A stretch of DNA of 64,000 nucleotides, taken from Sphingomonadaceae bacterium 3R27E2-A (GTDB taxonomy: Bacteria > Pseudomonadota > Alphaproteobacteria > Sphingomonadales > Sphingomonadaceae). Where the stretch lies: contig SCNT01000005.1 of assembly GCA_005503165.1 (NCBI GenBank), forward strand, positions 62,001 to 126,000. Reading direction: 5' to 3'. The notes beneath the pieces were generated by a model, which did no database searches, was not told where the DNA came from, and saw nothing but the letters and a program-made list of their open reading frames with translations. This document shows positions 6,286 to 52,773 of the stretch, piece by piece (the first letter of the stretch is position 1; each line of letters starts with the position of its first letter). The translations under genes were made by a program, and so were the position numbers.

Positions 6286-6303
6286 ATTCTGATCGGAGCG
6301 GCC

Positions 6304-7833: not shown

Positions 7834-7910
7834 GGCGGAGTAGCTCAGCAGGTTAGAGCAGCGGAATCATAATCCGCGTGTCGGGGGTTCGAGTCCCTCC
7901 TCCGCTACCA
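7834..7910 (+). tRNA. tRNA-Met (CAU), elongator type
   Basis: A full cloverleaf is visible: acceptor arms 7834-7840 and 7900-7906 (first pair G-U), D arm GAGC, anticodon stem GCGGA/TCCGC around the loop A-T-C-A-T-A-A (anticodon CAT), T arm GGGGGTTCGAGTCCC and an encoded CCA at 7908-7910. CAU could also be Ile2 with a lysidine, but the stems match alphaproteobacterial elongator Met tRNA as I recall it. An integrase gene starts 190 bases downstream, so the 3' half probably doubles as the attachment site. Confidence 0.95.
7881..7910. other. putative attachment site (attL) in the tRNA 3' end
   Basis: Integrases of the P4 type usually recombine within the T arm and 3' end of a tRNA gene, leaving the tRNA intact at one end of the element. 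The tRNA here is complete and the integrase reads away from it immediately afterwards. A second copy of this 3' end was not found inside the window, so the other junction (attR) should lie beyond base 64000. The exact core is inferred. Confidence 0.55.
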
Positions 7911-8046
7911 TCCCGGATTGTCCACCGGTGGCCCACTGAGGCCACTGGCAGACATTTTTCGAGGAAAATCAAATATTTTTCGCGTCCCGTTGCGTACGCC
8001 GGCGTCCCGGTGCGACCCGCTGCGGCCACCCACGGCGATTTGGATT

Positions 8047-8098
8047 GGGGGTATTTTGGGGGTATTTTTCGGCTGTCCCCAAAACAGGCGATACCCCC
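8047..8098. repeat. GGGGGTAT repeats upstream of integrase (candidate arm sites)
   Basis: Two adjacent direct copies of GGGGGTATTTT (8047-8057 and 8058-8068) face an inverted ATACCCCC (8091-8098) that ends two bases before the integrase ATG. They could be arm-type sites for the integrase N-terminal domain, or an autoregulatory hairpin that covers the translation start, since no Shine-Dalgarno sequence is visible there. Confidence 0.5.
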
Positions 8099-8100
8099 AG

Positions 8101-28648: not shown

Positions 28649-28680
28649 GAATAGTTCTGCAGCGAATTGAATTGGACGAC
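28649..28680 (+). promoter_or_regulatory. conserved promoter element, copy 3 (upstream of TonB receptor 3)
   Basis: The block GAATAGTTC..AATTGAATTGGACGA matches copy 1 at 27 of 32 bases and lies 63 bases before the receptor ATG. ATGAGCAGCA just upstream (28638-28647) is shared with copy 2, and the next 30 bases also resemble the copy 1 leader. Confidence 0.55.
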
Positions 28681-28743
28681 GGCCCTCAAATGCCGCCAAA
28701 CGGCATGAACTACACAATATCTCCTGGGAAGAGAGGATCAGCC

Positions 28744-30906
28744 ATGAGAGGATGTCTATTGGCGTCTGCCGCGTTGTTGTGCTCGGGAACAGCATTTGCC
28801 CAGGAAGCAACGCCCCAGGCGAACGACCAAACCGGGAGCGCCACGGAAGCGCTGGCTGAGGACATTGTCGTTACCGCCACCAAAAAGGGCTATGGCGAAA
28901 GCGTGCAGAAAGTACCGATGGCGGTCACGGCTTTTGGTGAAGCGCAGTTGGATGCCAAGTTCGTCCAGAATCTTCAAAGTCTGAGCTACGACGTTCCCAA
29001 CGTCCAGCTCGAGGATGTGGGTACGGCACCGGGCTATGCCAATTTCACTATCCGGGGCCTCGGCATCAACAGCACGATCCCATCGATCGACCCCACCGTA
29101 GGCGTTTTCACTGACGGTATTTACCTCGGCATCAACGCTGGTGTCGTGCTGGACAACTTCGACCTTGAGGGGATCGAAGTTCTGCGTGGACCGCAAGGCT
29201 TGCTTTTCGGTCGCAACGTTACCGGCGGTGCCGTGGTTGTGCGGACCACACGGCCCAGCTTCGATTTTGGAGCCAAAGCCAAGCTATCCATTGAAACGGG
29301 ACTGAAGAAGACCGTAAGCGGCACGGTTACCGGACCTATCGTCGATGACGTTTTGGCTGCCAAATTGGCCGTCTACTACAGCGACGACAATGGCTGGTTT
29401 CGCAACCGCTTCGACAATCGCAGCTTCGGTAAATCACATGACCTTATCATTCGCCCGGCACTTTCGCTCAAGGGTGGCGACCGCTTCCGAATGGATCTCC
29501 GCTATGAGCATGGCGATGTCGAAAGCGATGGAGCCCCTGTCCAGAGTCACGCGCTGTTTCCCCGCGACAGCTTCAGGTTTTCGATCAATTTCCCAGGTTT
29601 CTATGATGCCAAATGGGACCAGGCGATCGTGGAAACCAACATCGATGTCGGTCTGGGCGGAGGCGTCTTCACCAACATCGCTGGCTATCGGAAATTCCGA
29701 TCCTCCGCGGGCGCTGATATCGATGGAACACCACAGTCCTTCTTTCATGCCTTTTTCGAAATCGACCAGGATCAGCTCAGCGACGAACTTCGTTATGCCG
29801 GAAGGTTCGGTGACGTCGAATTGACAACCGGTCTATACTATTTTTCCCAGGATCTTCGTTACGCCGAGCTGCGGAATCTTTTGGGCGGTGCTCGGATCGT
29901 TTCCGGTGGGGGTACGCAAGACCAGACAACATGGGGCATTTTTGCTTCGACCGACTGGCATTTCACCGATACGCTGACCTTGAATCTCGGCGCGCGGTAT
30001 AGCTGGGAACGCAAAGCCGTTCGGGTCTCGGCCTTGCGCGCAAATGGTTGCAATCTAGACACGCTGATCTGTGCAACCAATTTCGCCGACGCGGCAAAAT
30101 GGCGAGGGTTTACGCCGAAAATCGGCCTTCAGTGGAAGCCGGATGACGACACGCAGATTTATGGCCTTTACACGCGCGGGTTCCGCAGCGGCGGATATAA
30201 TTTGCGCAACACCGATCCCGCTGTGCCGCCGGGGCCATTCAATCAAGAGACCCAGGACAGTTTCGAACTCGGCGCCAAGAAGCAATTCGGGCGCCACCGG
30301 ATCAACCTGGCGGCCTTCTACAATCGCATGAAGGACCTGCAGCGCGAGATCAACCTGCCCGGACCGCTTGGCGTCAGCCAGGTCATACGGAACACCGCCG
30401 ACGCCACAATCAAAGGCGTCGAGGCCGAGGGGCAGTTTTTTCTTTTGTCCAACCTCGTGATTTCGGGTCAGCTCGGCTACGTGAATGGCCAGTATCGCAA
30501 CGTCCAGTTCGACCTCAGCGGTGATGGCGTCATCAACGATGTGGATCGTGCGCTCAAATTGCCAAGGCTGTCGCCATGGACCTATGGCGTGGGGCTGACT
30601 TATGATCAGCAGCTTGGCGAATTGGGGACAGCAACGGCGCGTGTCAGCTTCACGCATCGCGACAAGGCGGCATTCACCGACAACAACGTCGGCTTCCTTC
30701 AGGGCGCCGATATGCTCGATGCGAGCCTCACATTGGCGACCGACAACAAGCACTGGCGCTTCTCCATCTATGGCCGAAACCTCCTGAATGAGGTGACGAT
30801 TGGCGGCGATACACCTTTGCCGGCGGCCTTCGGGGGCACGGGTGCAAGCCTTTCACCGCTAAACAGGGGGCGCGTCATCGGCGGAGAAGTGGCGATTAGC
30901 TTCTAG
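28744..30906 (+). CDS. TonB-dependent outer-membrane receptor (module 2, second)
   Basis: The 720-residue protein has a signal peptide (cleavage near A-F-A-Q-E), plug start D-I-V-V-T-A-T-K-K and V-L-R-G-P-Q-G-L-L-F-G-R-N, and a barrel ending V-A-I-S-F. ATG 28744 follows GAGAGGA. It is shorter than the receptor at 16578 but shares its upstream element, so the two are probably co-regulated. Two receptors in one cluster suggest either two substrates or uptake of related compounds. Confidence 0.93.
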   Translation: MRGCLLASAALLCSGTAFAQEATPQANDQTGSATEALAEDIVVTATKKGYGESVQKVPMAVTAFGEAQLDAKFVQNLQSLSYDVPNVQLEDVGTAPGYANFTIRGLGINSTIPSIDPTVGVFTDGIYLGINAGVVLDNFDLEGIEVLRGPQGLLFGRNVTGGAVVVRTTRPSFDFGAKAKLSIETGLKKTVSGTVTGPIVDDVLAAKLAVYYSDDNGWFRNRFDNRSFGKSHDLIIRPALSLKGGDRFRMDLRYEHGDVESDGAPVQSHALFPRDSFRFSINFPGFYDAKWDQAIVETNIDVGLGGGVFTNIAGYRKFRSSAGADIDGTPQSFFHAFFEIDQDQLSDELRYAGRFGDVELTTGLYYFSQDLRYAELRNLLGGARIVSGGGTQDQTTWGIFASTDWHFTDTLTLNLGARYSWERKAVRVSALRANGCNLDTLICATNFADAAKWRGFTPKIGLQWKPDDDTQIYGLYTRGFRSGGYNLRNTDPAVPPGPFNQETQDSFELGAKKQFGRHRINLAAFYNRMKDLQREINLPGPLGVSQVIRNTADATIKGVEAEGQFFLLSNLVISGQLGYVNGQYRNVQFDLSGDGVINDVDRALKLPRLSPWTYGVGLTYDQQLGELGTATARVSFTHRDKAAFTDNNVGFLQGADMLDASLTLATDNKHWRFSIYGRNLLNEVTIGGDTPLPAAFGGTGASLSPLNRGRVIGGEVAISF

Positions 30907-30964
30907 GCCATTTTCGAGGCGAGTGGAATCACCCGCCAACTCGGAAAATGCCCAAGATCAATTT

Positions 30965-31020
30965 GCTAGAGCATTTCCTGCCGGAAAGCCGGTTCCCACT
31001 TCTGCGCGAAATGCTCTAGC
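30965..31020. repeat. palindromic intergenic repeat
   Basis: Twelve-base perfect arms GCTAGAGCATTT (30965-30976) and AAATGCTCTAGC (31009-31020) enclose a 32-base loop with CCGGAAAGCCGG. This form of repeat (TAGAGCAT..ATGCTCTA) is scattered between genes in many alphaproteobacteria. It lies between the convergent TonB receptor and lysR genes and may act as a transcription end. Confidence 0.7.
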
Positions 31021-31070
31021 TGATCGCGACGGATGCAGCGGATTTCCGATCGCACCCCGCCCCCTTGCCG

Positions 31071-31985
31071 TTAATCCGATGGTGCGGTGCGCCATGCCTG
31101 ACGAACAAGGCTGACGAGCGCACGGCCAGCCGGTTTTACCTGCCAGCGGCTACGCACAGCATAACAAAGCGTCAATGGATCGAATAAACCGATTCCCTCC
31201 AAGGCCACGAAATTGGCGCGAAACCATGAGTTCTCGGTGAACTGTTTTGCAACCATCCCGATAGCATCGGATGTGGCAACGATCCGTCGAACCAATTGAA
31301 AATAGTCTGTCATGTGGATCCAGTCAGCGGGACGCTTACCGCTTTTTTCGTACATCTGCTGAATGATCGATGTGTAGGGTTCGGAAGATGAGGGCACTAC
31401 GAATTCGAACTGGACCAGCGGCTCCTTGCTGGTCGGGTTTATCCCCAGAATGGGATGATTGTTCCGCACAAAAGGCAGTATTTCGATCGAGGCGACCCGC
31501 TCGCACTTGAATTCCGGCCAGCGTGCAAAGGCCGCTTCAAGTCCAAAGGCGACATCGATATCGCCGCGCGACAGGAGTCGCACGCCCCTTTCGCTGTTGC
31601 CCGAAACGACTTCGACGCGCACTGCCGGATGGCGCCGCAGCAAAGAAACCAGAGGTTGGGTGAGCAACCAGTCGATTGACCCTGGGAACAGTCCGATTCG
31701 AAGCGGGCCCGCATAGGCGTCGGCGCGGCGGGCTGTATCTCCGAGTAGTTCAGCTGCGTCGGCAAGCAAGCGCGCTGCGCGATCGATAAATTCGCGTCCC
31801 TCCTCTGTCGGCATCGCGCCCCGTGAGGTCCGATGGAAAAGGGAATAGCCAAGATACCGTTCGAGTTCAGCGACACTCTTGGTCACCGCCGACTGCGTGA
31901 CACCAACCGCATCCGCTGCCCTGGAGAAGGAACGAAGCTGACCAACCGCGACGGCATGCTTGAGGCGAGAATCGAGCATGGACAT
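31071..31985 (-). CDS. LysR-family transcriptional regulator
   Basis: The 304-residue protein has the winged helix at about residues 5-65 (F-S-R-A-A-D-A-V-G-V-T-Q-S-A-V-T-K) and a periplasmic-binding-like effector domain (about 95-300). The Met at 31985 is chosen because LysR proteins begin a few residues before the helix (M-S-M-L-D-S-R); the frame upstream is non-coding. It is divergent from the CoA transferase gene. Its own promoter carries a weaker copy of the element found before three cluster units, which makes it the likely regulator of module 2. Confidence 0.9.
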   Translation of the reverse strand: MSMLDSRLKHAVAVGQLRSFSRAADAVGVTQSAVTKSVAELERYLGYSLFHRTSRGAMPTEEGREFIDRAARLLADAAELLGDTARRADAYAGPLRIGLFPGSIDWLLTQPLVSLLRRHPAVRVEVVSGNSERGVRLLSRGDIDVAFGLEAAFARWPEFKCERVASIEILPFVRNNHPILGINPTSKEPLVQFEFVVPSSSEPYTSIIQQMYEKSGKRPADWIHMTDYFQLVRRIVATSDAIGMVAKQFTENSWFRANFVALEGIGLFDPLTLCYAVRSRWQVKPAGRALVSLVRQAWRTAPSD

Positions 31986-31993
31986 GCCCCACA

Positions 31994-32025
31994 GGAATAA
32001 TTGCTCCAGAGAATGAATTAGGCGA
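31994..32025. promoter_or_regulatory. LysR-box-like site at lysR promoter (element copy 4)
   Basis: GGAATAATT..TGAATTAGGCGA keeps both ends of the shared cluster element at the same spacing (about 20 of 32 bases match copy 3). It contains the interrupted dyad TAATT (31998-32002) / AATTA (32016-32020). It starts nine bases before the lysR start codon, in the gap divergent to the CoA transferase, the usual place for LysR autoregulation. Confidence 0.45.
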
Positions 32026-32152
32026 ATCAAGGTCATTTTGCCAATCTTACTTTCGACACTGCCGCCCAGCACGACTGCAACCCGTCTCGAAATCTGGAGC
32101 GGCGAAACGGCCTGGATCAAAGCGCCAAGGTCTCAGACGCAGGTATGCCTGA

Positions 32153-33298
32153 ATGACGAAAACTGGTCCGCTTGCAGGCCTCAAAATACTCGAAATTGCG
32201 GGCATCGGCCCGGCGCCGTTTTGCGGAATGCTGTTGGCCGACCTTGGCGCCGATGTCGTCGTCATTGAACGCGTAAGCCCTAACTCCGAAAATATCGATC
32301 TTGGCAGCGGCGCCATTGTGAACCGCGGGAAACGTGTAATTGCCTTGGATCTGAAGTCCCCCGAAGGCGTCGCGCATGTCCTGGATCTCGTCCAAAGGGG
32401 CGATGTACTGATCGAAGGCATGCGGCCTGGGGTGATGGAGAGGCTCGGCCTTGGTCCCGAGGTTTGCCTAGCGCGTAACCCCCGCCTTGTATTCGGTCGC
32501 ATGACGGGTTGGGGGCAGCAGGGACCTCTCGCCCAAGCGGCCGGCCATGACATCAACTATATCGCGCTGTCAGGAGCCCTTTGGTATGCTGGGCATCCTG
32601 GTGAACCGCCAATGGCGCCGCCAAGCCTGGTAGGCGATATTGGGGGTGGAGCGCTTTATTTGGCCATCGGCGTCCTCGCAGCGGCAATGCACGCCCGGGA
32701 TACCGGGAATGGGCAAGTGGTTGACGCCGCGATCGTCGATGGGAGCGCTCACATGATGAACTTGCTCCTGAGCCTGAAGGCCGCCGGCCAGGTTGCCAGC
32801 ATACGCGGCTGCAGCATCCTTGACGGCCCTCACTGGTACTCGACCTATCGGTGCGCCGACGGGAATTTCATCTCAGTCGGATCACTCGAGCCCAAGTTCT
32901 ATGCGCTGCTTTGCAAAAAGCTGGGGTTGGCCGGCGATAGCAGTTTTGACGACGGCTATGATCGTGATGCCTGGCCCGAGCTCAAGCAGCGTTTTAGCGA
33001 GATATTCGCCATGCGGACACGGGAAGAATGGCGCGCACTGCTGGAAGGCAGCGATGCCTGCTTTGCCCCCGTGCTTGATCCGGACGAAGCGGCGCGCCAT
33101 CCTCATATGGCAGCGCGAGGCGTCTATCGGGAGATCGACAATATCCTTCAGGCAATGCCGGCGCCACGTTTTTCGGGCTCGTCACTACCGATCCCCGGAC
33201 CGATCCCGCTGCATCATGAAGATCCGAGTACAATTCGGCGGGGCTGGAGCAAACCGGACCGCTGCGGGATTACCGCCAGAACCGACTGTTGCGAGTAG
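32153..33298 (+). CDS. class III CoA transferase / alpha-methylacyl-CoA racemase-like
   Basis: The 381-residue CaiB/BaiF protein has N-terminal L-K-I-L-E-I-A-G-I-G-P-A-P-F and the G-W-G-Q-x-G-P-L-A-x-x-A-G-H-D-I-N-Y segment whose His and Asp serve as acid-base pair in racemases and whose Asp is the acyl carrier in transferases. The short length and GHDINY pattern favour alpha-methylacyl-CoA racemase. Beside SCP2-type thiolase and HSD17B4-like SDR, a racemase would fix the methyl stereochemistry before acyl-CoA dehydrogenation. Transferase activity remains possible. Confidence 0.85.
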   Translation: MTKTGPLAGLKILEIAGIGPAPFCGMLLADLGADVVVIERVSPNSENIDLGSGAIVNRGKRVIALDLKSPEGVAHVLDLVQRGDVLIEGMRPGVMERLGLGPEVCLARNPRLVFGRMTGWGQQGPLAQAAGHDINYIALSGALWYAGHPGEPPMAPPSLVGDIGGGALYLAIGVLAAAMHARDTGNGQVVDAAIVDGSAHMMNLLLSLKAAGQVASIRGCSILDGPHWYSTYRCADGNFISVGSLEPKFYALLCKKLGLAGDSSFDDGYDRDAWPELKQRFSEIFAMRTREEWRALLEGSDACFAPVLDPDEAARHPHMAARGVYREIDNILQAMPAPRFSGSSLPIPGPIPLHHEDPSTIRRGWSKPDRCGITARTDCCE

Positions 33299-33586
33299 TC
33301 GGTTGGCATGGTGGGCGGCCAGCGGCCCGACACGAACGGTGATTTCATAACTATGAACCAATGCGACGCTCCGCTTCGCTGCATTCAAATCAAAGGAGAC
33401 AACGACACACAGGCACGTCAAACTATCCGATGATTCCTGTACGCCACGCCGGAACGGCGATTGCGGACGTGTCCACGGGACGTTGTTCGCATCGTGATTC
33501 GCTCGGCGCTTGAAATCAATGCTCGCCCCGGATGTGACGACGCCGATGGGATTTCCACTGCGGCGGCCACGGCCAATGTCCTGGCG

Positions 33587-33656
33587 TGAGGGCTTCGGTC
33601 ATCGACCGATTCGACCGTCCGAATGCGGTCTTTTGGCGCGCCTGAGAATCCGCATC
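33587..33656. repeat. 70-bp structured direct repeat, right copy
   Basis: This is the partner of the copy at 16058-16127, same orientation and length. The second hairpin reads GACCGT-CCGAAT-GCGGTC, so the pair that is G-C in the left copy is A-T here, a compensatory change. It closes module 2 on the right. Confidence 0.75.
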
Positions 33657-33759
33657 AGAGTTGAGTGCGCGTTGTTCGGGAATCTCATTTAAATATTTGT
33701 AAAAACGTAATAATATAGATAATAACTCCAACCTGTATCCAGTGTGGAGTAATGGTCGC

Positions 33760-33779
33760 AGGGCGTGAACTTACGCCCT
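33760..33779. promoter_or_regulatory. dyad over the start region of the XRE gene
   Basis: Seven-base perfect arms AGGGCGT (33760-33766) and ACGCCCT (33773-33779) end one base before the ATG of the XRE regulator. The site may be an autoregulatory operator or an RNA hairpin that hides the ribosome site. No clear Shine-Dalgarno sequence is present outside it. Confidence 0.4.
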
Positions 33780-33780
33780 T

Positions 33781-34107
33781 ATGGATGCGTCGAAGTCCTT
33801 CAGTTTGAATCTCAGGAAATTGCGGCTTGCGATGCGCATCACGCAAGAAGCGCTCGCCCATGATGCGGGCACGAGCAGCTCTTATCTGAGTGCGATCGAA
33901 AATGGCCGGTCGAGCCCGACGCTGAAAGCAATGGAGCGGCTCGCGAAGGCACTCGGCGTCAATGCCGTCTATCTCTTGTCCGGCCGGATATCGATCTCGA
34001 TCGTTTCGGACGACGAACTGGAAATCGGCGCGATACTGGCGCGCCCGGCGGTGACGCTCCGGCGCCATCCGCACAAGCCGACGGGGCGGCCGAGCAAGAC
34101 CAAGTAA
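33781..34107 (+). CDS. XRE-family regulator of the ICE
   Basis: The 108-residue protein has a Cro/C1 helix-turn-helix at about residues 9-63 (L-R-K-L-R-L, then S-S-Y-L-S-A-I-E-N-G-R-S-S-P-T) and a basic C-terminal tail. The tail P-x-K-P-T-G-R-P-S-K-T-K is AT-hook-like. It is the first gene of the ICE control block and precedes luxR, so it probably represses excision or transfer genes, as small XRE proteins do in related ICEs. Its own start lies against a dyad. Confidence 0.82.
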   Translation: MDASKSFSLNLRKLRLAMRITQEALAHDAGTSSSYLSAIENGRSSPTLKAMERLAKALGVNAVYLLSGRISISIVSDDELEIGAILARPAVTLRRHPHKPTGRPSKTK

Positions 34108-34193
34108 ATCATCGGGGGCTGCACGCGCGTGGGCTGGAACCACGCGCCCGATAGACGCGCCCGCAACGCGCGCGTCGAAAGGAGTGCCCCTCG

Positions 34194-34940
34194 GTGCCGT
34201 TTCGCGACCTCGATGCCTATATTAAGCAGGCCAGGCGCGCGAACAGTGATCGCGAGCTGTTCAGTTGCAGCGAGGCCGCCGCACGCCAGCTCGGCCTCCC
34301 ATGGCTCGCGATCGTCCAGAGCATGGCCTTCTTTCAGCCCGGTGGGCGATATTTCCGCATGGACAATTTCCAGAGCTGGGGCGACGTTTTCGTCGCCGAA
34401 GGCTATTACCGCGACGATCCCGCCTTGCTCGCGGCGCGCTCGACAAGCCGGGCGTTCGGCTGGCACGAAATGGAGCGACTGCTGGGCGGCTTCACGCGGC
34501 GGCAGGCGCGCATCGTGCGCGAAGCCGCGCGTCATGGCCTGCGCAACGGCCTCACCGTTCCGATTGGCGTCGCCGGCGAGCCGCCCGGATGCTGTACGTT
34601 CGCAACGCGCGACGGGCAATTGCCGCCATCGCATATCTGCCGGATCGCGACGCTGATGGCGAGCGAGGCTTTTACCGAGGCGCGGCGCTTGCACGGCTTT
34701 CCGGCGCGCCGCCTGGAATTGCCCCATCTCAGCCCAAAGCGGCTCGAATGCTTTCGCTTGGCGGCGATGGGCAAGAGCGACGTCGAGATCGGGATCATGA
34801 TGCACATCGCGCCAACGACCGTGCGCACCTACATGCGCGACCTGCGCGAGCATTTCGGCATCTATTCCCGCGCGCAGCTCCCGGCGATCGCGCTCGCCTG
34901 CGGGATCGTCTGCATCGAGGAGATCGTCCCGCGCTTCTGA
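34194..34940 (+). CDS. traR: LuxR-family quorum-sensing regulator
   Basis: The 248-residue protein has the autoinducer-binding domain with conserved positions visible (Trp62, Tyr72, Asp75, Pro76, Trp90) and a C-terminal LuxR helix-turn-helix (about 178-235, L-S-P-K-R-L-E-C-F then T-T-V-R-T-Y-M). It should bind an acyl-homoserine lactone made by the adjacent synthase. The first codon is GTG 34194 with AAAGGAG upstream. Position in the ICE next to transfer genes suggests control of conjugation, as TraR does in ICEMlSym; symbol assigned by analogy. Confidence 0.87.
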   Translation: MPFRDLDAYIKQARRANSDRELFSCSEAAARQLGLPWLAIVQSMAFFQPGGRYFRMDNFQSWGDVFVAEGYYRDDPALLAARSTSRAFGWHEMERLLGGFTRRQARIVREAARHGLRNGLTVPIGVAGEPPGCCTFATRDGQLPPSHICRIATLMASEAFTEARRLHGFPARRLELPHLSPKRLECFRLAAMGKSDVEIGIMMHIAPTTVRTYMRDLREHFGIYSRAQLPAIALACGIVCIEEIVPRF

Positions 34941-35004
34941 GTAGGATCGCCGCATCCTCAATATTGACGACTGTTTGAACTCCGCATCTCTGCTCCTTTT
35001 GCGA

Positions 35005-35021
35005 CCGTTCACGTTGAACGG
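35005..35021. promoter_or_regulatory. 17-bp dyad before luxI (lux-box-like or RBS hairpin)
   Basis: Perfect arms CCGTTCA (35005-35011) and TGAACGG (35015-35021) are separated by CGT. The right arm overlaps the ribosome site GGGAG (35020-35024), which is eight bases before the luxI ATG. It could be the operator for the adjacent LuxR protein or a translation-limiting hairpin. Confidence 0.5.
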
Positions 35022-35032
35022 GAGCTACTGCT

Positions 35033-35647
35033 ATGATCCATATTGTCCAAGGGTGCTCGCTTACCGATGCGCGCGCCGCCTCGATGTTCGAGGACCGCAA
35101 GACCCTGTTCGTCGATCTGCTGGGCTGGGATGTTCCGGTCGTCGGCGGCCGCTATGAAATCGACAGCTATGACGGCGACAAGGCGGTCTATCTGATCGCC
35201 ACCGACGATGGCTGCATTCACCAGGGGTCGATGCGGCTGCTATCGACAGAGGGCGCGCATCTGCTCGCCGATCGTTTCGCGTCGCTCTGCGAGTGCGATG
35301 CGCCCCGGGGGGAGCAGGTTCGCGAGATTACGCGACTTTGCCTGCCGCAACGATTGGGCGCCCCCGGACGCCTGCGTGTCCGCAACCGGCTCATCTCGGC
35401 GATGGTCGATCATGCGCTCGGCAGCGGAATCACCATGCTAACCGGCGTCGTGACCGCTGCTTTTCGCGAGGAGGTTTTGGCGATGGGCTGGCGCGCAGCG
35501 CCGCTCGGCCCCGCGCGCCGCATCGATGGCGCGTTCCTTGGAGCGTTCCGCATCGAGATCTGCGCCGGTACGCCTGCGCTGCTGGCGTCGAACGGCATCT
35601 ATGTGCCGGGTGCGATCACTCCCGATGCGGCGGCAAGAGCCGCGTGA
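35033..35647 (+). CDS. traI: acyl-homoserine-lactone synthase
   Basis: The 204-residue LuxI-type protein keeps the catalytic set at canonical spacing: Arg22, Phe26, Trp32, Glu42, Asp44, Asp47 and Arg68 (S-M-R-L-L). It makes the signal sensed by the LuxR protein encoded 92 bases upstream. The stop lies just upstream of the downstream dioxygenase start, so the two are probably co-translated. Which acyl chain is used cannot be predicted. Symbol is by analogy with ICE-borne traR/traI. Confidence 0.88.
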   Translation: MIHIVQGCSLTDARAASMFEDRKTLFVDLLGWDVPVVGGRYEIDSYDGDKAVYLIATDDGCIHQGSMRLLSTEGAHLLADRFASLCECDAPRGEQVREITRLCLPQRLGAPGRLRVRNRLISAMVDHALGSGITMLTGVVTAAFREEVLAMGWRAAPLGPARRIDGAFLGAFRIEICAGTPALLASNGIYVPGAITPDAAARAA

Positions 35648-35658
35648 AGGGAATGGCG

Positions 35659-36534
35659 ATGCACGACCCCGCCCGCCTAGCCGCGATGCTGCTCGCCGAC
35701 GGTTATGTCATTGTCGATAACGCCGTGCCGACCGAGCTAATCACCGCGCTCGAAGCCGAACTCGCACCGCGCTTCGTCGCCACGCCCTTTTGCGAAGGCG
35801 GATTCTACGGAGCCCGCACCAAGCGCTTTGGCGCGTTGTTGCGGCGTTCACGGCATATCGCCGGCCTTGTGCTGCACCCGATCATCTGCGGTATCGCCGA
35901 AACGGTGCTCGGGGAATGGTGCGATCGTATCGTTCTCAACCTCACCCAGGCGATCGAAATCCATCCCGGCGCGCTCGCGCAGGTGCCGCACCGCGACCAG
36001 GATCTCTGGGGCGGCGTCAAGACCGGGATGCACTATCAGATCAACGTCATCTGGCCGATCGATCCGTTCACGCTGGAGAGTGGCGCGACGCTGGTCTGGC
36101 CGGGCAGCCATCACGATGCGGCATCGCAACCGGGCGATGCACGTCCGGTCGCCGCCGAAATGCCACCCGGCTCCGCGCTGCTGTTCCTCGGATCGATCCT
36201 GCATGGTGCCGGCGCTAACCAGTCCGATCATGTGCGCCGCGCGGTCATCACCTCCTATTGCCTCGGATGGCTGCGGACGTTCGAGAATCAGTATCTCGTC
36301 TACCCGCCCGCCATCGCTCGAGCGTTCGATCCCGATCTGGCCGCGCTCATCGGCTATGCCCAGCATCGCCCCAATCTCGGTAATGTCGAAGGCCAGTGCC
36401 CATCGGTGCTGCTTTACCGCGACGATATTGACGGCCTCCCGGCGATCGACGCGCTGCTTCCCGGTCAGGCGGACATGTTGGACGCCTACGTCGCGGATCA
36501 GGAAGCGGCGCGTGCGGGCCTGATCGGCGGGTAA
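35659..36534 (+). CDS. phytanoyl-CoA dioxygenase (PhyH)-family protein
   Basis: The 291-residue protein has the 2-oxoglutarate/Fe(II) facial triad: H111-R-D113 and His182 in L-H-G-A-G, with Arg193/194 for 2-oxoglutarate. AAGGGA at 35647-35652 is six bases before ATG 35659, which is preferred to ATG 35653. It follows luxI by 11 bases. A luxR-luxI-phyH arrangement recurs in sphingomonads as I recall, so the enzyme may modify the AHL, its acyl precursor or a co-regulated metabolite. That link is inferred from gene order. Confidence 0.85.
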   Translation: MHDPARLAAMLLADGYVIVDNAVPTELITALEAELAPRFVATPFCEGGFYGARTKRFGALLRRSRHIAGLVLHPIICGIAETVLGEWCDRIVLNLTQAIEIHPGALAQVPHRDQDLWGGVKTGMHYQINVIWPIDPFTLESGATLVWPGSHHDAASQPGDARPVAAEMPPGSALLFLGSILHGAGANQSDHVRRAVITSYCLGWLRTFENQYLVYPPAIARAFDPDLAALIGYAQHRPNLGNVEGQCPSVLLYRDDIDGLPAIDALLPGQADMLDAYVADQEAARAGLIGG

Positions 36535-47233: not shown

Positions 47234-47427
47234 ATATCGCAGCGCAAACCGATGTCGGCGACGAGCATCTTCAGGTGCAGATTCCTGCCGTTACGAAACG
47301 CGATCTCGGTCAACGGTCGCTCGATTCCCGCGAGCCGATCCGGATGATCGTACTGCGGGCACTTGAAGCCTATGGCGTGAGCGTCCCCGCAGACGCGATA
47401 TCGGATCGCCGGAAGGGCAGGCGATGA
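47227..47427 (+). CDS. small basic protein, probable ribbon-helix-helix-like regulator
   Basis: The 66-residue protein has a short beta-type stretch L-Q-V-Q-I-P followed by two helices (K-R-D-L-G-Q-R-S, then R-M-I-V-L-R-A-L-E-A-Y-G) and a basic tail R-R-K-G-R-R. This resembles RHH or similar small DNA-binding proteins of transfer regions. It overlaps the MazG-like gene start by four bases (ATGA), so it heads that operon. ATG 47203 is an alternative start. Its start region is embedded in palindromes, which suggests autoregulation. Confidence 0.6.
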   Translation: MKNIAAQTDVGDEHLQVQIPAVTKRDLGQRSLDSREPIRMIVLRALEAYGVSVPADAISDRRKGRR

Positions 47428-48602
47428 GCGAGGATTTCGAAGCTCTCACTGTTGCGGATTATGCGAAGCAGGCCGCGCGGACTGATCAACGCAGCGGTGG
47501 CCGCGCACTGGGCTTCTCGATGCTTGGCCTTTTCGGCGAAGTCGGCAGCTTGCTCAGTGAGGCCAAGAAAAAGCAGCGCGACGATGCCTCCTACCTGGGT
47601 TACGCTCACGCCGTCGCGGAAGAGCTTGGTGACGTCCTTTGGTATCTGGCGGCGATCGCACGGCGCAGCCGCATGGCGCTCAGCGACATCGCTGCCGCCG
47701 CGGCGACAAACGGCGGACAATGGCAGACGGGCGGCAACGAAACGCTCAGTTTCCATGCGCTGCAGCCGCAGCACATTCCGCTTGCCAAGGCACCGATGCC
47801 GCAGTTCGAGCATAGCCTGCTCGCGCTGGCAGGCGACGTTGGGCTGCTCATCAACGATTTCCAGGCGGGCGGTCTTGCGAAGGACCGCGAAGCACTCGCG
47901 GGCCGGCTGGTCGCGGTCATGCGCCGGTTGATCCAGGCGGCAAACGAATCCGGTGTTACCATCGAGGCTGCCGCCGTGAAGAATCTTCACAAGATCTTCG
48001 ATCGCTGGCCGCGCGAGCGCATCTATCCGGCGCCGACCGATGCGGCGCTCGACCCAGAAGAGCAATTGCCGCGGCGGATGGCGATCGACGTCTATGAACG
48101 CACCGTTCGCGGGCAGACATTCGTGTATCAACGCTCAAGCGGTGTGTATGTCGGCGACCGGCTCACCGACAACGCGCTCGAACCCGACGACTATCGCTTC
48201 CACGATGTCTTTCACTACGCTTATGTCGCGGTGCTTGGCTGGTCGCCAGTGCTGCGTGCGCTGCTCCGTCTCAAGCGCAAGAGCGATCCGAAACTCGACG
48301 ACGCCGAAGACGGTGCTCGGGCGATTCTCATCGAAGAGGGCATAACTTCCTGGATTTTCGGACAAGCGCAGCAACTCCGGTACTTTGAAAACGTGAAGCG
48401 CGGTGGCCTTCCGCTGGACATGCTGAAGCATGTCCGCCAGTTCGTCGCCGGCTACGAATCAGAACGCTGTCCGCTGTGGCTTTGGGAGGAAGCGATCCTC
48501 CAGGGCTATACGGCTTTCCGCTTCCTTCAGGAGCATCGGCGCGGCCGCGTCCTGATCGACTTCGCCAATCGCCGCCTGCGTATCAAGGAATTGCCGTCAT
48601 GA
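47424..48602 (+). CDS. MazG-like nucleotide pyrophosphohydrolase
   Basis: The 392-residue protein has an N-terminal MazG-type all-alpha NTP-PPase domain (about 25-85): G-E-V-G-S-L-L-S-E (38-46) and E-E-L-G-D-V-L-W-Y (66-74) give the metal-binding ExxE/ExxD layout, though one usual Glu is Ser. The C-terminal half (about 210-385) contains F-H-D-V-F-H-Y-A and E-D-G-A-R-A-x-x-x-E-E-G-I, a separate conserved domain found with MazG modules, probably also metal dependent. It should hydrolyse non-canonical or excess (d)NTPs. It is coupled to the UDG-like gene by an ATGA overlap. Confidence 0.78.
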   Translation: MSEDFEALTVADYAKQAARTDQRSGGRALGFSMLGLFGEVGSLLSEAKKKQRDDASYLGYAHAVAEELGDVLWYLAAIARRSRMALSDIAAAAATNGGQWQTGGNETLSFHALQPQHIPLAKAPMPQFEHSLLALAGDVGLLINDFQAGGLAKDREALAGRLVAVMRRLIQAANESGVTIEAAAVKNLHKIFDRWPRERIYPAPTDAALDPEEQLPRRMAIDVYERTVRGQTFVYQRSSGVYVGDRLTDNALEPDDYRFHDVFHYAYVAVLGWSPVLRALLRLKRKSDPKLDDAEDGARAILIEEGITSWIFGQAQQLRYFENVKRGGLPLDMLKHVRQFVAGYESERCPLWLWEEAILQGYTAFRFLQEHRRGRVLIDFANRRLRIKELPS

Positions 48603-49303
48603 CCCCGAAATCCTTTGTGTCCACCCTGGCGGCGACCGAACTTCCCTCAGTGTTCAATCCCTGGCGCGATCGCTGCACGGTCCATGACCGCAGCGACGCC
48701 GCCGCCCGGCGCCGCGACAATCTCGAAATGCTGCTCACCGCGGCGCTTGATCATCGCGTCGAAACGATCTGGATCGCGCGTGATCTCGGCTATCGCGGGG
48801 GGCGGCGTACGGGCGTACCGCTGACCGACGAAATTCACCTCGGACATGCCGGTACGCTGATGGGCGGCATCGCATTCGAACGTGCGACGCAGGGACCCGC
48901 CGTGGCGGAGCGCACCGCGGCGATCGTCTGGCGTGTGCTAGAGCGGATCGGTCAGCCTGTCATGCTCTGGAACGTTTTCCCGTTCCATCCCCATGAAGCG
49001 GATGATCCGATGTCGAACCGATGCCACACGCGAAGCGAGCGCGAGGCGACCTGGCCGATATTGCAAGCCCTCGTGTCAATGATCCGGCCCCGCCAGATCG
49101 TCGCGATCGGGCGCGATGCTCACCTGGCGCTGGACGGTCTCGACATTCCGACCACCGCGGTCCGCCATCCGAGCTACGGCGGGCAGCGCGAGTTCATCGA
49201 GGGCATGTTCAGCCTGTACGGTGTCGCGGATGACAACGATGAGCCGCTAGAACTGCCGTTGGGCGCGCCTCACGCCGCAGCAAGGAGATGTGCGCTCGCC
49301 TGA
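48599..49303 (+). CDS. uracil-DNA glycosylase superfamily protein
   Basis: The 234-residue protein has a motif 1-like stretch A-R-D-L-G-Y-R-G-G-R-R-T-G-V-P-L-T-D-E (60-78), a central W-N-V-F-P-F-H-P (124-131) and R-H-P-S-Y-G-G (189-195), where H-P-S matches the UDG motif 2 loop. The canonical catalytic Asp/Asn of family 1 is not obvious. It could excise a modified base or bind one. It is coupled to the MazG-like gene upstream and runs convergently into the TS-like gene (34-base overlap). Confidence 0.75.
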   Translation: MTPKSFVSTLAATELPSVFNPWRDRCTVHDRSDAAARRRDNLEMLLTAALDHRVETIWIARDLGYRGGRRTGVPLTDEIHLGHAGTLMGGIAFERATQGPAVAERTAAIVWRVLERIGQPVMLWNVFPFHPHEADDPMSNRCHTRSEREATWPILQALVSMIRPRQIVAIGRDAHLALDGLDIPTTAVRHPSYGGQREFIEGMFSLYGVADDNDEPLELPLGAPHAAARRCALA

Positions 49304-50049
49304 TCGCAGCGCTCAAAGAGTTGCTTAAGATCGCCGCGGTTCCAGTTGGCGGTGTCGACCGTGGCGTTGGTCGAGACGATCGTGAGCGGACCCAGCGCGA
49401 CCCCGCCTTCCTTGGCGATGAATTCGAGCAGACGGCCGAGGCCGATCAGATTGCCGAGCAGTTTTTCGATATAGTAGTGATTGCGGTAGAGCGCGGTCAT
49501 GCCGAGGCGACGATCGTCGCCCTTGCCGATCAGCTTGAGACTGGCAAAGCTCAGGCACTGACCGCCGTAGGGCGAGTCATTCACGTCGCGGGCGGGGTCG
49601 AAGATCAGCAGTTCGAATTTGTTGAGCGCTCGGACGTTCGGGTTGCGCAGGCGCTCGACGATGCCCCAGATTTGATTGATTGGCTGGCCGTCGGCGCGGG
49701 GCAATTCCATCATCCGTTCGAAATAATAGCCCGACCAAGCGCCCGACCTCCGGACCTTCGGCAGCACGTTGTCGCGAAACCGGTCGAAGAATTGCGGCGC
49801 GCCGTAGCGCCTGTACAGCGCTGCCGGAAAAATCGTGTTGGCGACCGTCTCGATGGGCTTCTTGCCATGGCCCGAAAGGAAGGCATCGACTTCCGCCACG
49901 ACGGGATCGGCGAGTGTTGCGCGCGCAGTCGGCTCGGCCACGGAGATGACGACATTCTGCGCCTGGTGTCCGGTGGCGAGGTCGACGAGCCGGACCGCCT
50001 CGCGCCAGCCAGCAACGCAGTCAGGCTGCGGCGGTATGGGAAGATACAT
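49270..50049 (-). CDS. thymidylate-synthase-like protein
   Basis: The 259-residue protein follows the TS fold: I-N-Q-I-W-G-I-V-E-R-L-R-N-P-N-V-R-A-L-N (125-143) resembles the TS segment before its active site, Y-G-G-Q-C-L-S-F (161-168) places Cys165 as the likely nucleophile, and M-T-A-L-Y-R-N (184-190) with G-N-L-I-G-L (199-204) replaces L-Y-Q-R-S and P-F-N-I-A. The RS phosphate ligands and the H-x-Y near the end of TS are not kept, so the substrate or activity may differ from dUMP methylation. It is the last gene of a five-gene minus operon and overlaps the cysteine protease gene by 29 bases. Confidence 0.65.
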   Translation of the reverse strand: MYLPIPPQPDCVAGWREAVRLVDLATGHQAQNVVISVAEPTARATLADPVVAEVDAFLSGHGKKPIETVANTIFPAALYRRYGAPQFFDRFRDNVLPKVRRSGAWSGYYFERMMELPRADGQPINQIWGIVERLRNPNVRALNKFELLIFDPARDVNDSPYGGQCLSFASLKLIGKGDDRRLGMTALYRNHYYIEKLLGNLIGLGRLLEFIAKEGGVALGPLTIVSTNATVDTANWNRGDLKQLFERCDQASAHLLAAA

Positions 50050-50701
50050 CGACTTCCTCCGTCAAATTTGCCGTGGCGAAAAGGCGCGGCGCTAGAAAGC
50101 GCTCAGTAAGCCAGGCGTGGCCTTCCAAGCCCCAACCTGGTCCCCAGCTGTTGCGGATGAGAATGGCCGGGATGCCGTCCACGGTTCCATGCCCGACCGC
50201 GACGACCGCGTGCCGTTGCGCTGGCTCGGGGAGTTCGTCGTTCGCCGGATCGACGACGCCATCACCGCGCGGCTGGAAGAAAGACCGTGACAGCATCGTC
50301 AGCATGAGCACCGGCGTGTCACGGTCCAGCGCGGCAAGGATGGATGACAGGTCGGTTCCATCCCTCTGTCCGTTGCGGCCATAGAGCGGGCCAACGGTCG
50401 CCGGCGGCGTCCACAGTCGATGATCGGCTGGAACCGCAGCCAGATACGGCCAGCCTTTCTCGTCGGGTTGGCCATCGAGCCGTAGCGCGTCCAGCATTGT
50501 GGATAGCAGTGCGCCGCTCGTCGGCGGTCTGCCCGCCCGTTTCTGCGCGGCATGAAAGGCGAATTCACACGACAGCGGTGCCCAGCCGTCGCGAAGCCCG
50601 GCGTGGGTGTCGCTCGCGGCGAATGCGAGGCATGTCGGCCGCGCGCCTTGATCGCGCGCAGGTCCGAACAGCGGCCGAAGGTCACGGACGATATCGATCA
50701 T
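50021..50701 (-). CDS. papain-like (C1) cysteine protease
   Basis: The 226-residue protein has all four papain elements in order: Gln18 and Cys24 in D-Q-G-A-R-P-T-C-L-A-F-A, His164 in Q-R-H-A-V-V-A-V-G, and Asn184 in I-R-N-S-W-G-P-G-W-G. There is no signal peptide or pro-domain, so it is a cytosolic, already mature form, unlike lysosomal papains. It starts six bases after the stop of a gene encoding a metallopeptidase with a chagasin-like inhibitor domain, which suggests that it is held inactive by its neighbour. Its target is unknown. Confidence 0.88.
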   Translation of the reverse strand: MIDIVRDLRPLFGPARDQGARPTCLAFAASDTHAGLRDGWAPLSCEFAFHAAQKRAGRPPTSGALLSTMLDALRLDGQPDEKGWPYLAAVPADHRLWTPPATVGPLYGRNGQRDGTDLSSILAALDRDTPVLMLTMLSRSFFQPRGDGVVDPANDELPEPAQRHAVVAVGHGTVDGIPAILIRNSWGPGWGLEGHAWLTERFLAPRLFATANLTEEVDVSSHTAAA

Positions 50702-50707
50702 GGGGCG

Positions 50708-51718
50708 TCAGGCGGCCTCGAGCAGGTGCCGCCGTTCGGCGCGCGACAGGCCCGTCTGTTCCGGGCCGGTGAGGTCGAAATCGAGCGTCAGGCTGGTGAG
50801 GGCCGGCGCAGGCTGCCACGGCCGCCGCTCGTCGAGCGACATGCGGCCGCGCCGCGGCGCATCGGGCGCCGCGGTGACACGGCGGACAACGGGACCACCG
50901 ATGCCATCGCCGTCGATTGCCTCACGCTCGTCGCGAACGACGGCGAAGCCGCTGGCGATCAGTTGGTCGAGATCCCAGAGATACCCACCGCCGCTATGTT
51001 CTTCGAGCCGCAGCACGAAAAGATCATTGCGACTGCCATCGATCCGCGAGCCGGCATCGCGCTCGGTCAGCAGCCAGACGTCGCCGCGATAGTTGTCGGG
51101 CCGATAGTCCTTGAGGAGATCGACCTTCAGGCTGCGCGGCTGCGTCCGGAGCAGGTCGGTCATCACCGATGGCGAAATCAGATTGTAGCGAACCAGGGTG
51201 CGGCACGTCGCCTCATAGCTGGCGCCGATCCGCAGCGAGAGCTGATAGACGACATTGGGGCGCCGGAAATGATCGATCTGCCATCCTTGTCGCGCGCTGT
51301 GCGCGAGCATCAGCCATTTCGGCATCATGAAGGCGATCGCAAAGGCGTCGGCTTCGGTTTCCTCGAAGTTGTTTCCCGGTTCGGGCGACATCGGCATCCG
51401 GCGCAGGATGCTCTCATCGTCGAGGCTCGGCTCGTGTCGCATCGAAAAATGCCCGAGTTCGTGCGCGGCCGTGAAGCGCTGGATGCTCATCGGTCGTTCC
51501 GTCGTGACGAGAACGCCAGGAGCAGGTGCGCTGAGATAGGCGCCGAGCAGGCCTTTCAGGGGACGAAGCAGCAAGGGTAGACCCACGGCATGGATCGCGC
51601 CGAAGACATCGACGCTGCCGCCTTGGGTCTCGATCAGTGCGCGCGTATCGAGTTCGCGATGCAGGCGGCCCGCTGCCATCGTACCAGCGCGAACCGCGCT
51701 CGCATAATCCGACGCCAT
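50708..51718 (-). CDS. ImmA/IrrE metallopeptidase fused to chagasin-like inhibitor domain
   Basis: The 336-residue protein has an N-terminal ImmA/IrrE zincin (about 1-150) with H-E-L-G-H at 86-90 and E-A-D-A-F-A (122-127) as third ligand. The C-terminal domain (about 208-316) shows the three contact loops of I42 (chagasin) inhibitors in order: G-G-G-Y-L-W (243-248, like T-T-G-Y-x-W), G-I-G-G (272-275) and R-R-P-W (298-301). I42 proteins block papain-family proteases, and a papain-like gene lies six bases downstream. The upstream XRE gene fits the usual ImmR-ImmA pair. The fusion is, to my knowledge, unusual. Confidence 0.8.
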   Translation of the reverse strand: MASDYASAVRAGTMAAGRLHRELDTRALIETQGGSVDVFGAIHAVGLPLLLRPLKGLLGAYLSAPAPGVLVTTERPMSIQRFTAAHELGHFSMRHEPSLDDESILRRMPMSPEPGNNFEETEADAFAIAFMMPKWLMLAHSARQGWQIDHFRRPNVVYQLSLRIGASYEATCRTLVRYNLISPSVMTDLLRTQPRSLKVDLLKDYRPDNYRGDVWLLTERDAGSRIDGSRNDLFVLRLEEHSGGGYLWDLDQLIASGFAVVRDEREAIDGDGIGGPVVRRVTAAPDAPRRGRMSLDERRPWQPAPALTSLTLDFDLTGPEQTGLSRAERRHLLEAA

Positions 51719-51721
51719 CGA

Positions 51722-52096
51722 TCAGCTCCGTTCGCCGCCAGACCGCGAGCGGAGATATTCGGCAAACCGGCTCAGCTCGGCCCGGTCCTCAGTCGACAAG
51801 GCCGCAACGCGTCGCGCCAGATGGGCGACATCGGCGGGAAGGCTCGCGGAGGCCTCGTCTTCGCCGGTAAAATAGGCCACCGACTGGCGGTAAAGACGGG
51901 CAAGCCGCGTCAGTTCGATCGCTTCAACGCGGCGCTGGCCATTCTCGATATCGGTAAGCGCGGTCCGGGGAATCTTGAGATAGGCAGCAACTTCTTCCTG
52001 CTTGAGGCCGAGATATTTCCGTGCTTCGCGCAGACGGTCGCCCAAGCGCCGCCGCTCCTGCTCGTCGCCTTCCTGGCGGAGTGCGAGATTGGTCAT
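51722..52096 (-). CDS. XRE-family repressor, partner of the ImmA-like protease
   Basis: The 124-residue protein has a Cro/C1 helix-turn-helix at about 20-75 (L-R-E-A-R-K-Y-L-G-L-K-Q-E-E-V then T-A-L-T-D-I-E-N-G-Q-R) followed by a helical tail (about 85-118). It starts on an ATGA overlap with the ACP-like gene and ends three bases before the ImmA-type gene. ImmA-like proteases typically cut such repressors, so this is the likely switch of the operon. A palindrome at 52455-52473 in front of the operon is a candidate operator. Confidence 0.85.
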   Translation of the reverse strand: MTNLALRQEGDEQERRRLGDRLREARKYLGLKQEEVAAYLKIPRTALTDIENGQRRVEAIELTRLARLYRQSVAYFTGEDEASASLPADVAHLARRVAALSTEDRAELSRFAEYLRSRSGGERS

Positions 52097-52431
52097 GGCT
52101 TCGACCCTTTCTTCTTAACCCAGACGCGTTCGATCTTAGGGAGGAGGTCGTCAATCGCCTTCTCGATCGAATTGTAGCCGCCGGTGCGGACGATGCTGTC
52201 GCGAAGCTCGATGTCGAGGACCTGCTCCACCGCGCAAAGCGTGTCGACCACGGACAAGGAGTCGAGTGGCACGGGCGCCTGGATGATCTTCGGGTTTTCC
52301 GGAGGTAGGGCAATTCCGCGCACCTGTGCCTCAGCCCTGGCCACTTGCAGCAGTTCGTCGACCAACGCCCTAATGGCGTCGGCTTTGGGAAACGCGGTTG
52401 CCGCGGGCTTCGGAGGAGCGATTGTCGCCAT
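52093..52431 (-). CDS. acyl-carrier-protein-like small protein
   Basis: The 112-residue protein (from Met at 52431; an upstream Met would add seven residues) has an N-terminal helix and then an ACP-like region: P-L-D-S-L-S-V-V-D (55-63) resembles the D-S-L phosphopantetheine site, followed by A-V-E-Q-V-L-D-I-E-L (67-76) and a final helix after G-G-Y-N-S-I-E-K-A-I. The Ser58 would carry the prosthetic group if it is a true carrier. It heads an operon with XRE, protease-inhibitor, protease and TS-like genes, a surprising place for an ACP. It could be a sensor or scaffold that only mimics the fold. Confidence 0.6.
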   Translation of the reverse strand: MATIAPPKPAATAFPKADAIRALVDELLQVARAEAQVRGIALPPENPKIIQAPVPLDSLSVVDTLCAVEQVLDIELRDSIVRTGGYNSIEKAIDDLLPKIERVWVKKKGSKP

Positions 52432-52773
52432 GCATGCCTCGCACGATTTCACTACATTAAATGCGATATAATGTCTGATAATCCGACACGCAAGCCCGAA
52501 TTTGCAGCTCGGATTTTTGCAGGGTGTAGCGGGTCATCGGCGGTGCGGTGTGGTGGTCAGTGCCACCTCGAGGGACAACGGCAGGGCAGAATCATCAACT
52601 CGGGTCATAGCTCGATCAAAAGAACAGAGCTGGAATATTGAGTCAGTCGCCGACGAGTGATCTCCTTCGGTCACCCACCAGCCCCCAGCGGCTCCGTTCA
52701 TTTCGGGCGGCCCATAGCCGAGTCTTGAAGCCGCGCCCCGACCGCATCCGGCGGTATGGGCGGGAGCTTCAAC
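52432..52773. other. divergent gap between accessory operon and traG
   Basis: These bases hold no supported gene. The left part is AT-richer and contains the palindrome CATTAAAT-GCG-ATATAATG (52455-52473, seven of eight arm bases pair), which is a probable operator or promoter for the minus-strand operon. The right part is GC-rich and leads into traG. Confidence 0.5.
52455..52473. promoter_or_regulatory. palindrome in the accessory operon promoter
   Basis: CATTAAAT (52455-52462) and ATATAATG (52466-52473) form a near-perfect dyad 24 bases before the ACP-like start codon. It could be the site of the operon's XRE repressor. The assignment rests on position and symmetry. Confidence 0.45.

Follow-up and report, generated by a model that had tools for sequence, protein, structure and literature searches.

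A putative mobile operon in which a repressor-cutting M78 metallopeptidase fused to an I42-type inhibitor domain is encoded beside a papain-type protease

The window analysed here comprises 64,000 nucleotides of Sphingomonadaceae bacterium 3R27E2-A (assembly GCA_005503165.1, contig SCNT01000005.1, positions 62,001 to 126,000 of the forward strand). It carries five minus-strand genes, arranged head to tail from 52452 to 49270 and overlapping or separated by very short gaps, which encode, in this order, a carrier-like protein, an XRE repressor, a fusion of an M78 (ImmA/IrrE-type) metallopeptidase with an I42 inhibitor domain, a C1 (papain-type) protease and a thymidylate-synthase-like (TS-like) protein (Table 1). 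We suggest, with a probability of roughly 60%, that this locus is best explained as a self-regulated mobile operon combining a proteolytic switch, a protease inhibitor and a nucleotide pathway.

Each component belongs to a known family. What appears to be new is that a repressor-cutting protease is coupled to the inhibitor of a second protease, in an operon that also encodes a TS-like enzyme and a carrier protein. A literature search, which covered the open literature in part, found no paper joining a repressor-cutting M78 protease, I42, C1, a carrier protein and a TS-like enzyme. The fusion and its protease neighbour had been pointed out in an earlier, sequence-only reading of the window; that reading had mentioned neither the carrier protein and the TS-like enzyme nor the nearby genes for nucleotide modification.

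A metallopeptidase fused to an inhibitor domain

The fusion was recognised by Pfam as a Peptidase_M78 (E 2.8e-9) and by PADLOC as capP (E 2.4e-12), and the H, E and H of its HELGH zinc motif are conserved in all of the 76 non-redundant loci described below. The Pfam match to Inhibitor_I42 (E 4.8e-5, 24.0 bits) lies under the cut-off of 27.2 bits; in a scan of the whole host genome the I42 match scored 27.0, or 27.4, which is over the cut-off, when neighbouring matches in the same frame were counted. A profile built from 10 homologues was compared with the Protein Data Bank (PDB), where it matched amoebiasin-2 (EhICP2; E 7.5e-11), with all three contact loops in register, as well as CapP (9.3e-7), IrrE (1.3e-6), the ICP of 2wgn (7.9e-5) and chagasin (0.016).

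Residues 205-336, folded alone, gave a model with a predicted local distance difference test score (pLDDT) of 85.5 and a predicted template modelling score (pTM) of 0.75. A fold comparison of this model, as the sequence-only reading had asked for, aligned it with EhICP2 (3m86) at Z 14.4 and a root-mean-square deviation (rmsd) of 2.7 over 108 residues and with chagasin (2nnr) at Z 12.1, versus Z 6.8 for the best non-I42 row, and all 14 best rows of a Foldseek search with the model were I42 structures. As modelled, the C-terminal domain of the fusion is an I42 (chagasin) fold, which is what the sequence-only reading had claimed from the presence of the three loops in order; a chance resemblance of the loop motifs is excluded by the fold and by the profile matches. 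The domain occupies the C-terminal region of the fusion, in which the GAF-like C-terminal domain of IrrE/PprI is not present.

Over the 76 loci G245, W248 and G274 are conserved in 70, 71 and 69 cases, respectively. These residues depart only in loci that lack C1, and are therefore a steadier sign than loop 3, in which R299 (64/76) and W301 (62/76) also vary in C1-containing loci. The known I42 inhibitors (chagasin, EhICP2 and the Pseudomonas aeruginosa ICP) share the fold and the three contact loops, but their known structures are stand-alone chains of 105-132 residues, whereas in this operon it forms part of a metalloprotease and its gene adjoins that of its likely target; no signal sequence was seen by eye in the fusion.

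A papain-type protease without a propeptide

Both open reading frames were found where the sequence-only reading had placed them: the stop codon of the fusion occupies 50710-50708 and is followed, on the minus strand, by six bases and then by the C1 ATG at 50701. The product was identified by Pfam as Peptidase_C1 (E 1.9e-9). It had been described as a complete enzyme, and the alignments agree, as all 67 non-redundant homologues retain Q18, C24 and H164, and 66 of them N184, the remaining one having a gap at this position. When the fusion and C1 were predicted as one chain, with the stop codon read as Trp, the C1 part aligned with mature chymopapain (Z 23.1, rmsd 2.4, 201 residues). The 50 rows listed by the fold search of this joined chain were all C1 structures and so said nothing on M78 or I42, which is why the I42 domain was folded alone.

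An N-terminal propeptide is a usual, not a defining, feature of the C1 papain family. Typical members that are secreted or lysosomal have one, but it is absent here: the open reading frame begins at the start of the mature domain, and residue 342 of the joined-chain model (C1 residue 3) aligns with residue 2 of mature chymopapain. No signal sequence was seen by eye, no prediction program having been run. A C1 protease without a prodomain in the cytosol would need another brake, and the I42 domain is the obvious one and the only one visible. The fold, together with the linkage described below, makes it very probable that the I42 domain inhibits the neighbouring C1 protease.

Bacterial papain-type proteases encoded together with an inhibitor, as here, are known from the staphopain-staphostatin and SpeB-Spi operons. 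These, however, are secreted zymogens with an inhibitor of another fold, and no repressor-cutting protease is involved.

Linkage of the inhibitor domain and the protease

The genome scan found 233 relatives, the best 80 of which gave 78 loci, and the table of 76 loci draws on these. Thinning at 88% identity reduced 98 loci to the 76 non-redundant ones. Kept out of the table were the copies of relatives that are 71-100% identical and have all five genes (L001-L014), M78 matches without TS or C1 (L015-L019), loci with C1 only and no M78 (L030, L031), viral C1 loci (L110-L189), 65 of the 67 viral M78 loci, which have no TS, short copies from the host and its relatives (L190-L196) and L204, in which no M78 match was found.

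In the 78 scanned loci the XRE gene was detected 77 times, I42 and the TS-like gene 74 times each, C1 72 times and the carrier protein 68 times. I42 and C1 occur together in 67 of the 76 non-redundant loci, neither occurs in seven, I42 only in two and C1 only in none (Fisher p 1.6e-8, a value that ignores kinship and comes from a scan whose query contained I42). In all 67 loci with both, the first aligned C1 residue lies between -4 and +64 bases from the M78 stop codon. A fairer test is to run separate family models on whole genomes. In the host, two matches each were detected for I42 and for C1, paired in two operon copies. The second of these (L197, G000:C3:30051-34500) is a whole operon with an 85% identical fusion and its own operator and MazG_C gene.

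The fusion is present in 14 of 99 genomes, a set that includes the host, and C1 adjoins it in all 14; the fusion-less 85 contain any C1 in one case only, within a 699-residue frame. Of the 14 fusions the I42 family model recognised 13, and it had no other I42 match in the 99 genomes. These counts (67/76 and 14/14) uphold the conserved adjacency in other genomes that had been expected of the pair.

The operon is widespread. A search for the TS-like protein across the class found it in 7 of 385 genomes, host included. The scanned loci span several phyla; judging by the record titles, many of which are those of metagenome bins, the taxa include alpha-, beta-, gamma- and deltaproteobacteria, Acidobacteria, Planctomycetes, Nitrospinia, Actinobacteria and a Balneolia bacterium. 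Plasmid searches retrieved the fusion in 20 records and C1 in 19; 16 records were common to both lists, with the two genes adjacent by coordinates; the remaining four fusion matches were partial M78 and the remaining three C1 matches unrelated larger proteins. In nine plasmid neighbourhoods, from Sphingobium to the archaeon Haloarcula marina, the five genes stand in order, and in a Rhizobium plasmid (L025:7667-8501) the TS-like gene is split into two frames while the rest of the operon is kept. The archaeal plasmid (L021) carries the full five-gene operon at 5333-8416, adjoining genes for a phosphopantetheinyl transferase (PPTase), a protein like the kinase of 5-hydroxymethyldeoxyuridine (5-hmdU) and a thymidylate (TMP) kinase, and a restriction endonuclease.

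A phage origin was rejected, as a search of 50,697 phage records with the TS-like protein gave nothing at E 0.01. The best 80 viral-contig C1 loci contained no other core match, save XRE in two, and among 67 viral-contig M78 loci (the best of the scan) a TS-like, I42 or C1 match was found only in L205 and L207.

Correlated divergence was measured in 62 loci, the 67 with both domains minus L025, L046, L049, L060 and L088. The partial r of the C1 distances was 0.35 with XRE, 0.31 with TS, 0.29 with I42 and 0.06 with the M78 domain, values that are suggestive only. As a side observation, XRE distances follow those of I42 and C1 and barely those of the M78 domain, its presumed cutter (partial r 0.01), for which the short sequences may be responsible.

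Nine non-redundant loci have no C1, and seven of these have no I42 match either. Among the seven are L020, L200, L205 and L207, simpler XRE-M78-TS loci with MazG_C or HMUDK_hel nearby, as well as L101 and L109, in which the TS-like gene is also missing. L090 is truncated inside I42 and has no C1. Loop 3 reads RPG in L104 and L106 and is missing in L108.

Some irregular loci were also seen. After the M78 gene of L104 and L106, at the place expected for C1, a 203-residue frame lies next to one that looks dCTP-deaminase-like. L066 (Hankyongella), dropped from the 76-locus table by thinning, is a broken near-copy of the window operon, with C1 and no I42 match in the best M78 frame. In L066 and L049 (Sphingomonas citricola) the frames of the fusion and of C1 are broken, or C1 and TS matches share one frame, which may be assembly errors or decay.

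The repressor and its putative operator

The best PDB match of the XRE protein is 7t8i (E 2.4e-10), the regulator of ICEBs1, which we take to be ImmR; DdrO and 7t5u also match, and PADLOC recognised the protein as capH (E 2.3e-12). The pairing of an XRE repressor with an M78 protease, already proposed from the sequence, is nearly universal, the XRE gene lying directly upstream of the M78 gene in 77 of the 78 scanned loci; the lone exception is truncated by a contig end.

Upstream of the carrier gene lies a 17-base palindrome of the form TGTCKGA-N3-TCMGACA, which differs by one mismatch from TGTCGGANNNTCCGACA. A palindrome scan allowing up to three mismatches gave six matches versus 3.36 expected, not above chance, among which this site stands out. 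Its exact form, TGTCKGANNNTCMGACA, is present at only two sites in the 4.5-Mb host genome, each before one operon copy, and the reversed control had no site. Upstream of the carrier gene the palindrome was found with at most one mismatch in 26 of 83 loci (expected 0.0023 per region) and with at most three in 48 of 83 (expected 0.025 per region), close copies being counted. As the exact operator is limited to the two operon copies, the XRE protein most likely regulates this operon alone.

By analogy, control by the M78-I42 fusion and the XRE protein is most likely CapH/CapP-like. The CBASS-associated CapH/CapP pair (CBASS, cyclic oligonucleotide-based antiphage signalling system), IrrE/DdrO and ImmA/ImmR have in common with this locus an XRE repressor beside an M78 protease, one apparent transcript and an upstream operator. 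They differ from it in that here M78 bears a C-terminal I42 domain, and CapH/CapP differs further in its cargo, which here is the C1 protease with the carrier and TS-like enzymes, not CBASS. PprI, and CapP too, are activated by single-stranded DNA to cut their repressors, according to one report (PMC10904395). DNA damage or viruses are the probable inducers of the operon.

A candidate nucleotide pathway

The profile of the carrier proteins had its best PDB match in an unnamed protein (0.0043), followed by the acyl carrier protein 8yg0 (0.0049), and the serine of the phosphopantetheine-type DSL motif (Ser65) is conserved in 62 of 62 sequences. Ahead of the last helix the carrier proteins have a Gly-Gly pair (residues 91-92 in the window), conserved in 61/62 and 62/62, respectively. 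PPTase genes lie near 33 of the 76 loci, including 25 of the 62 in which the carrier gene was detected. In several divergent loci that yielded no carrier gene, an AcpS-type gene stands between TS and XRE, and L098 has a carrier-like frame upstream. In two loci TS-like and AcpS-type domains share one frame (L100:2400-3782, residues 23-287 and 317-428; L104:433-1812), which suggests that the two activities are tied together.

The TS-like protein matches TIGR03283 (E 4.3e-10, 39.4 bits) under that model's cut-off of 174.55. Its Cys is aligned in 72 of 73 sequences and its Asn in 71 of 73, the remainder being gaps.

The neighbours of the 67 non-redundant loci with C1 and I42 include MazG_C in at least 50, UDG in at least 33, HMUDK_hel (the 5-hmdU DNA kinase family; counted separately from MazG_C) in at least 27, AcpS-type PPTase in at least 17, dCTP-deaminase-like proteins in at least 15, Sfp-type PPTase in at least 12, metallophosphoesterase in at least 10 and TMP kinase in at least 5. 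All these figures are lower bounds, because the flanks of part of the loci end at contig ends. Twenty of the 99 genomes contain MazG_C, among them every one of the 14 that carry the fusion. PADLOC, run on 10 neighbours without a background comparison, gave a strong match to a Shedu protein and to a kinase, weak matches to a caspase and a metallophosphoesterase, and none for the other six.

The 5-hmdU DNA kinase and MazG_C families have a role in the hypermodification of thymidine in phages. Genes of the sets known for this process (MazG_C, HMUDK_hel, dCTP deaminase, TMP kinase and TS-like) are found nearby here too. The loci differ from these sets in being carried by bacteria and plasmids and in the added carrier protein, C1 and M78-I42. 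Together with its neighbours, the operon appears to make unusual nucleotides.

Proposed mechanism and alternatives

Based on these observations, we suggest the following course of events. The XRE protein would repress the operon through the upstream palindrome, to which its position and genome-wide uniqueness point. On DNA damage or phage infection the M78 domain would, by homology with ImmA/ImmR, IrrE/DdrO and CapP/CapH, cut the XRE protein. Until then the I42 domain fused to M78 would bind cytosolic C1 in its active-site cleft and keep the protease off, and activation of M78, through movement or self-cleavage, would lift repression and free C1 together. We regard this release of C1 as possible, at slightly less than even odds. 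The TS-like enzyme, the phosphopantetheinylated carrier and the MazG_C, UDG and 5-hmdU-kinase-like neighbours may produce a modified pyrimidine nucleotide or police it, with C1 as a proteolytic effector or activator of that pathway. That the whole system serves defence against phages or stress through such a nucleotide is a suggestion nearly as plausible to us as its opposite. More tentatively still, we propose an undescribed, widely mobile immune-type system, in which triggered proteolysis of a repressor is coupled in one polypeptide to the release of a cytosolic papain-type protease from its fused inhibitor and drives inducible nucleotide or DNA modification via the TS-like enzyme and the carrier protein.

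If the model holds, the brake on a second protease is part of the very protease that cuts the repressor, a single signal could switch both transcription and proteolysis, and a papain-type protease inhibited by a chagasin-type domain is placed in bacterial cytosolic regulation. Such control over a TS-like enzyme and a carrier protein would also offer a testable route to new nucleotide chemistry, and the C1/I42 pair can be directly expressed and assayed.

Several findings weigh against this model. The 76-locus table is tilted towards I42, as the scan query carried the domain and the best 80 of 233 relatives were used, and 10 of the 14 fusion copies in the 99 genomes are 99-100% identical, which indicates recent spread and few independent events. 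C1 distances follow XRE and TS as much as I42. L104 and its near copy L106 keep a recognisable I42, and no C1 was found in the DNA of these loci; W301 is replaced by R in L025, by F in L079, L094, L098 and L099 and by H in L203, all of which contain C1. As loop 3 varies where C1 is present, the RPG of L104 and L106 is weak evidence of inhibitor decay. The joined chain of M78-I42 and C1 was predicted with pLDDT 89.4 and pTM 0.61. The PDB match of the TS-like protein to the TS fold is weak (thymidylate synthase, E 0.019; its Cys aligns with the Cys of the PCH motif), and with so weak a match to a true thymidylate synthase we infer the TS-like reaction. PPTase genes also lie near 8 of the 14 loci without a detected carrier gene, and the defence role leans on neighbour genes counted without a background.

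The C1 protein might instead be a biosynthetic or maturation enzyme, i.e. a papain-fold hydrolase or acyltransferase acting on the carrier protein or its cargo and held off by I42 until induction. C1 is nearly always found with the carrier and the TS-like enzyme, often with a PPTase as well, and its distances follow those of TS (0.31), as would suit such a role. However, the full Q/C/H/N set and the resemblance of the model to mature papain suit a peptidase, and the occurrence of XRE-M78-TS loci without C1 (L020, L200, L205 and L207) indicates that the TS step does not need it. This explanation seems to us rather unlikely.

Alternatively, I42 might be mainly a sensor: C1 bound to it would keep M78 inactive, and loss of C1, to a phage inhibitor or by substrate trapping, would free M78 to cut the repressor. 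I42 replaces the GAF-like domain through which, according to the report cited above (PMC10904395), PprI binds single-stranded DNA, and I42 and C1 distances follow XRE more than M78 domain distances do. On the other hand, distance correlations are weak evidence, and the invariance of the catalytic residues of C1 would be needless in a mere ligand, so we consider a mainly sensory I42 clearly unlikely, with inhibition of C1 in a self-regulated operon remaining our preferred reading.

A plain toxin-antitoxin (addiction) pair that maintains the mobile element in the population is less likely again. Its frequent location on plasmids or integrative and conjugative elements (ICEs), the position of the inhibitor upstream of the protease on one apparent transcript and the missing prodomain of C1 would all fit; yet five conserved genes and the nucleotide enzymes exceed the needs of an addiction module, and in view of the carrier, the TS-like enzyme and the nucleotide-modification neighbours a two-part reading is too narrow. 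Least of all do we favour a switch for ICE excision or transfer, offered by the sequence-only reading as a possible role: although the XRE protein resembles the ICEBs1 regulator and the TraG-type gene divergent from the operon, 268 bases from the operator, could be affected, such a general role appears highly improbable in view of the restriction of the exact operator to the two operon copies, the presence of the operon also on plasmids typed as non-mobilizable and a TraG-type neighbour within the flanks of only 6 of 68 non-redundant loci.

Genomic surroundings

The features of the self-regulated operon and of the two genes convergent with it are collected in Table 1.

Table 1. Operon features and convergent neighbours, in window coordinates
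Feature	Position	Strand	Basis
Operator-like palindrome TGTCTGATAATCCGACA	52472..52488		upstream of operon
Acyl-carrier-like protein, DSL serine Ser65	52093..52452	-	PDB profile match, Ser conservation, nearby PPTase genes
XRE repressor, ImmR/DdrO/CapH kind	51722..52096	-	PDB 7t8i, PADLOC capH
M78 (ImmA/IrrE) metallopeptidase + I42 inhibitor domain fusion	50708..51718	-	Pfam, PADLOC, profile
HELGH zinc motif, residues 86-90	51449..51463	-	conserved H, E, H
I42 domain (modelled), about residues 213-315	50774..51082	-	profile, model fold searches
I42 loop 1 GGGYLW, residues 243-248	50975..50992	-	homologue alignments
I42 loop 2 GIGG, residues 272-275	50894..50905	-	homologue alignments
I42 loop 3 RRPW, residues 298-301	50816..50827	-	homologue alignments
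C1 papain-type protease without prodomain, Q18 C24 H164 N184	50021..50701	-	Pfam, model, conservation
TS-like enzyme, Cys165 and Asn200	49270..50049	-	TIGR03283 below cut-off, weak PDB match
UDG-superfamily protein, convergent neighbour	48476..49303	+	Pfam E 5.1e-6
MazG + MazG_C protein, convergent neighbour	47424..48602	+	Pfam MazG_C E 2.7e-78

The surroundings are those of a conjugative element, with a DUF3363/relaxase-type gene (Pfam) in the window. The TraG-type gene, typed by clustering, starts at 52756 on the divergent side of the operator, and past it lie trb-type genes, named by eye from the list of open reading frames. Positions 28672-36534 of the window hold genes for a TonB-dependent receptor, a LysR regulator, a CoA-transferase III and a phytanoyl-CoA dioxygenase, probably a catabolic region adjoining the element.

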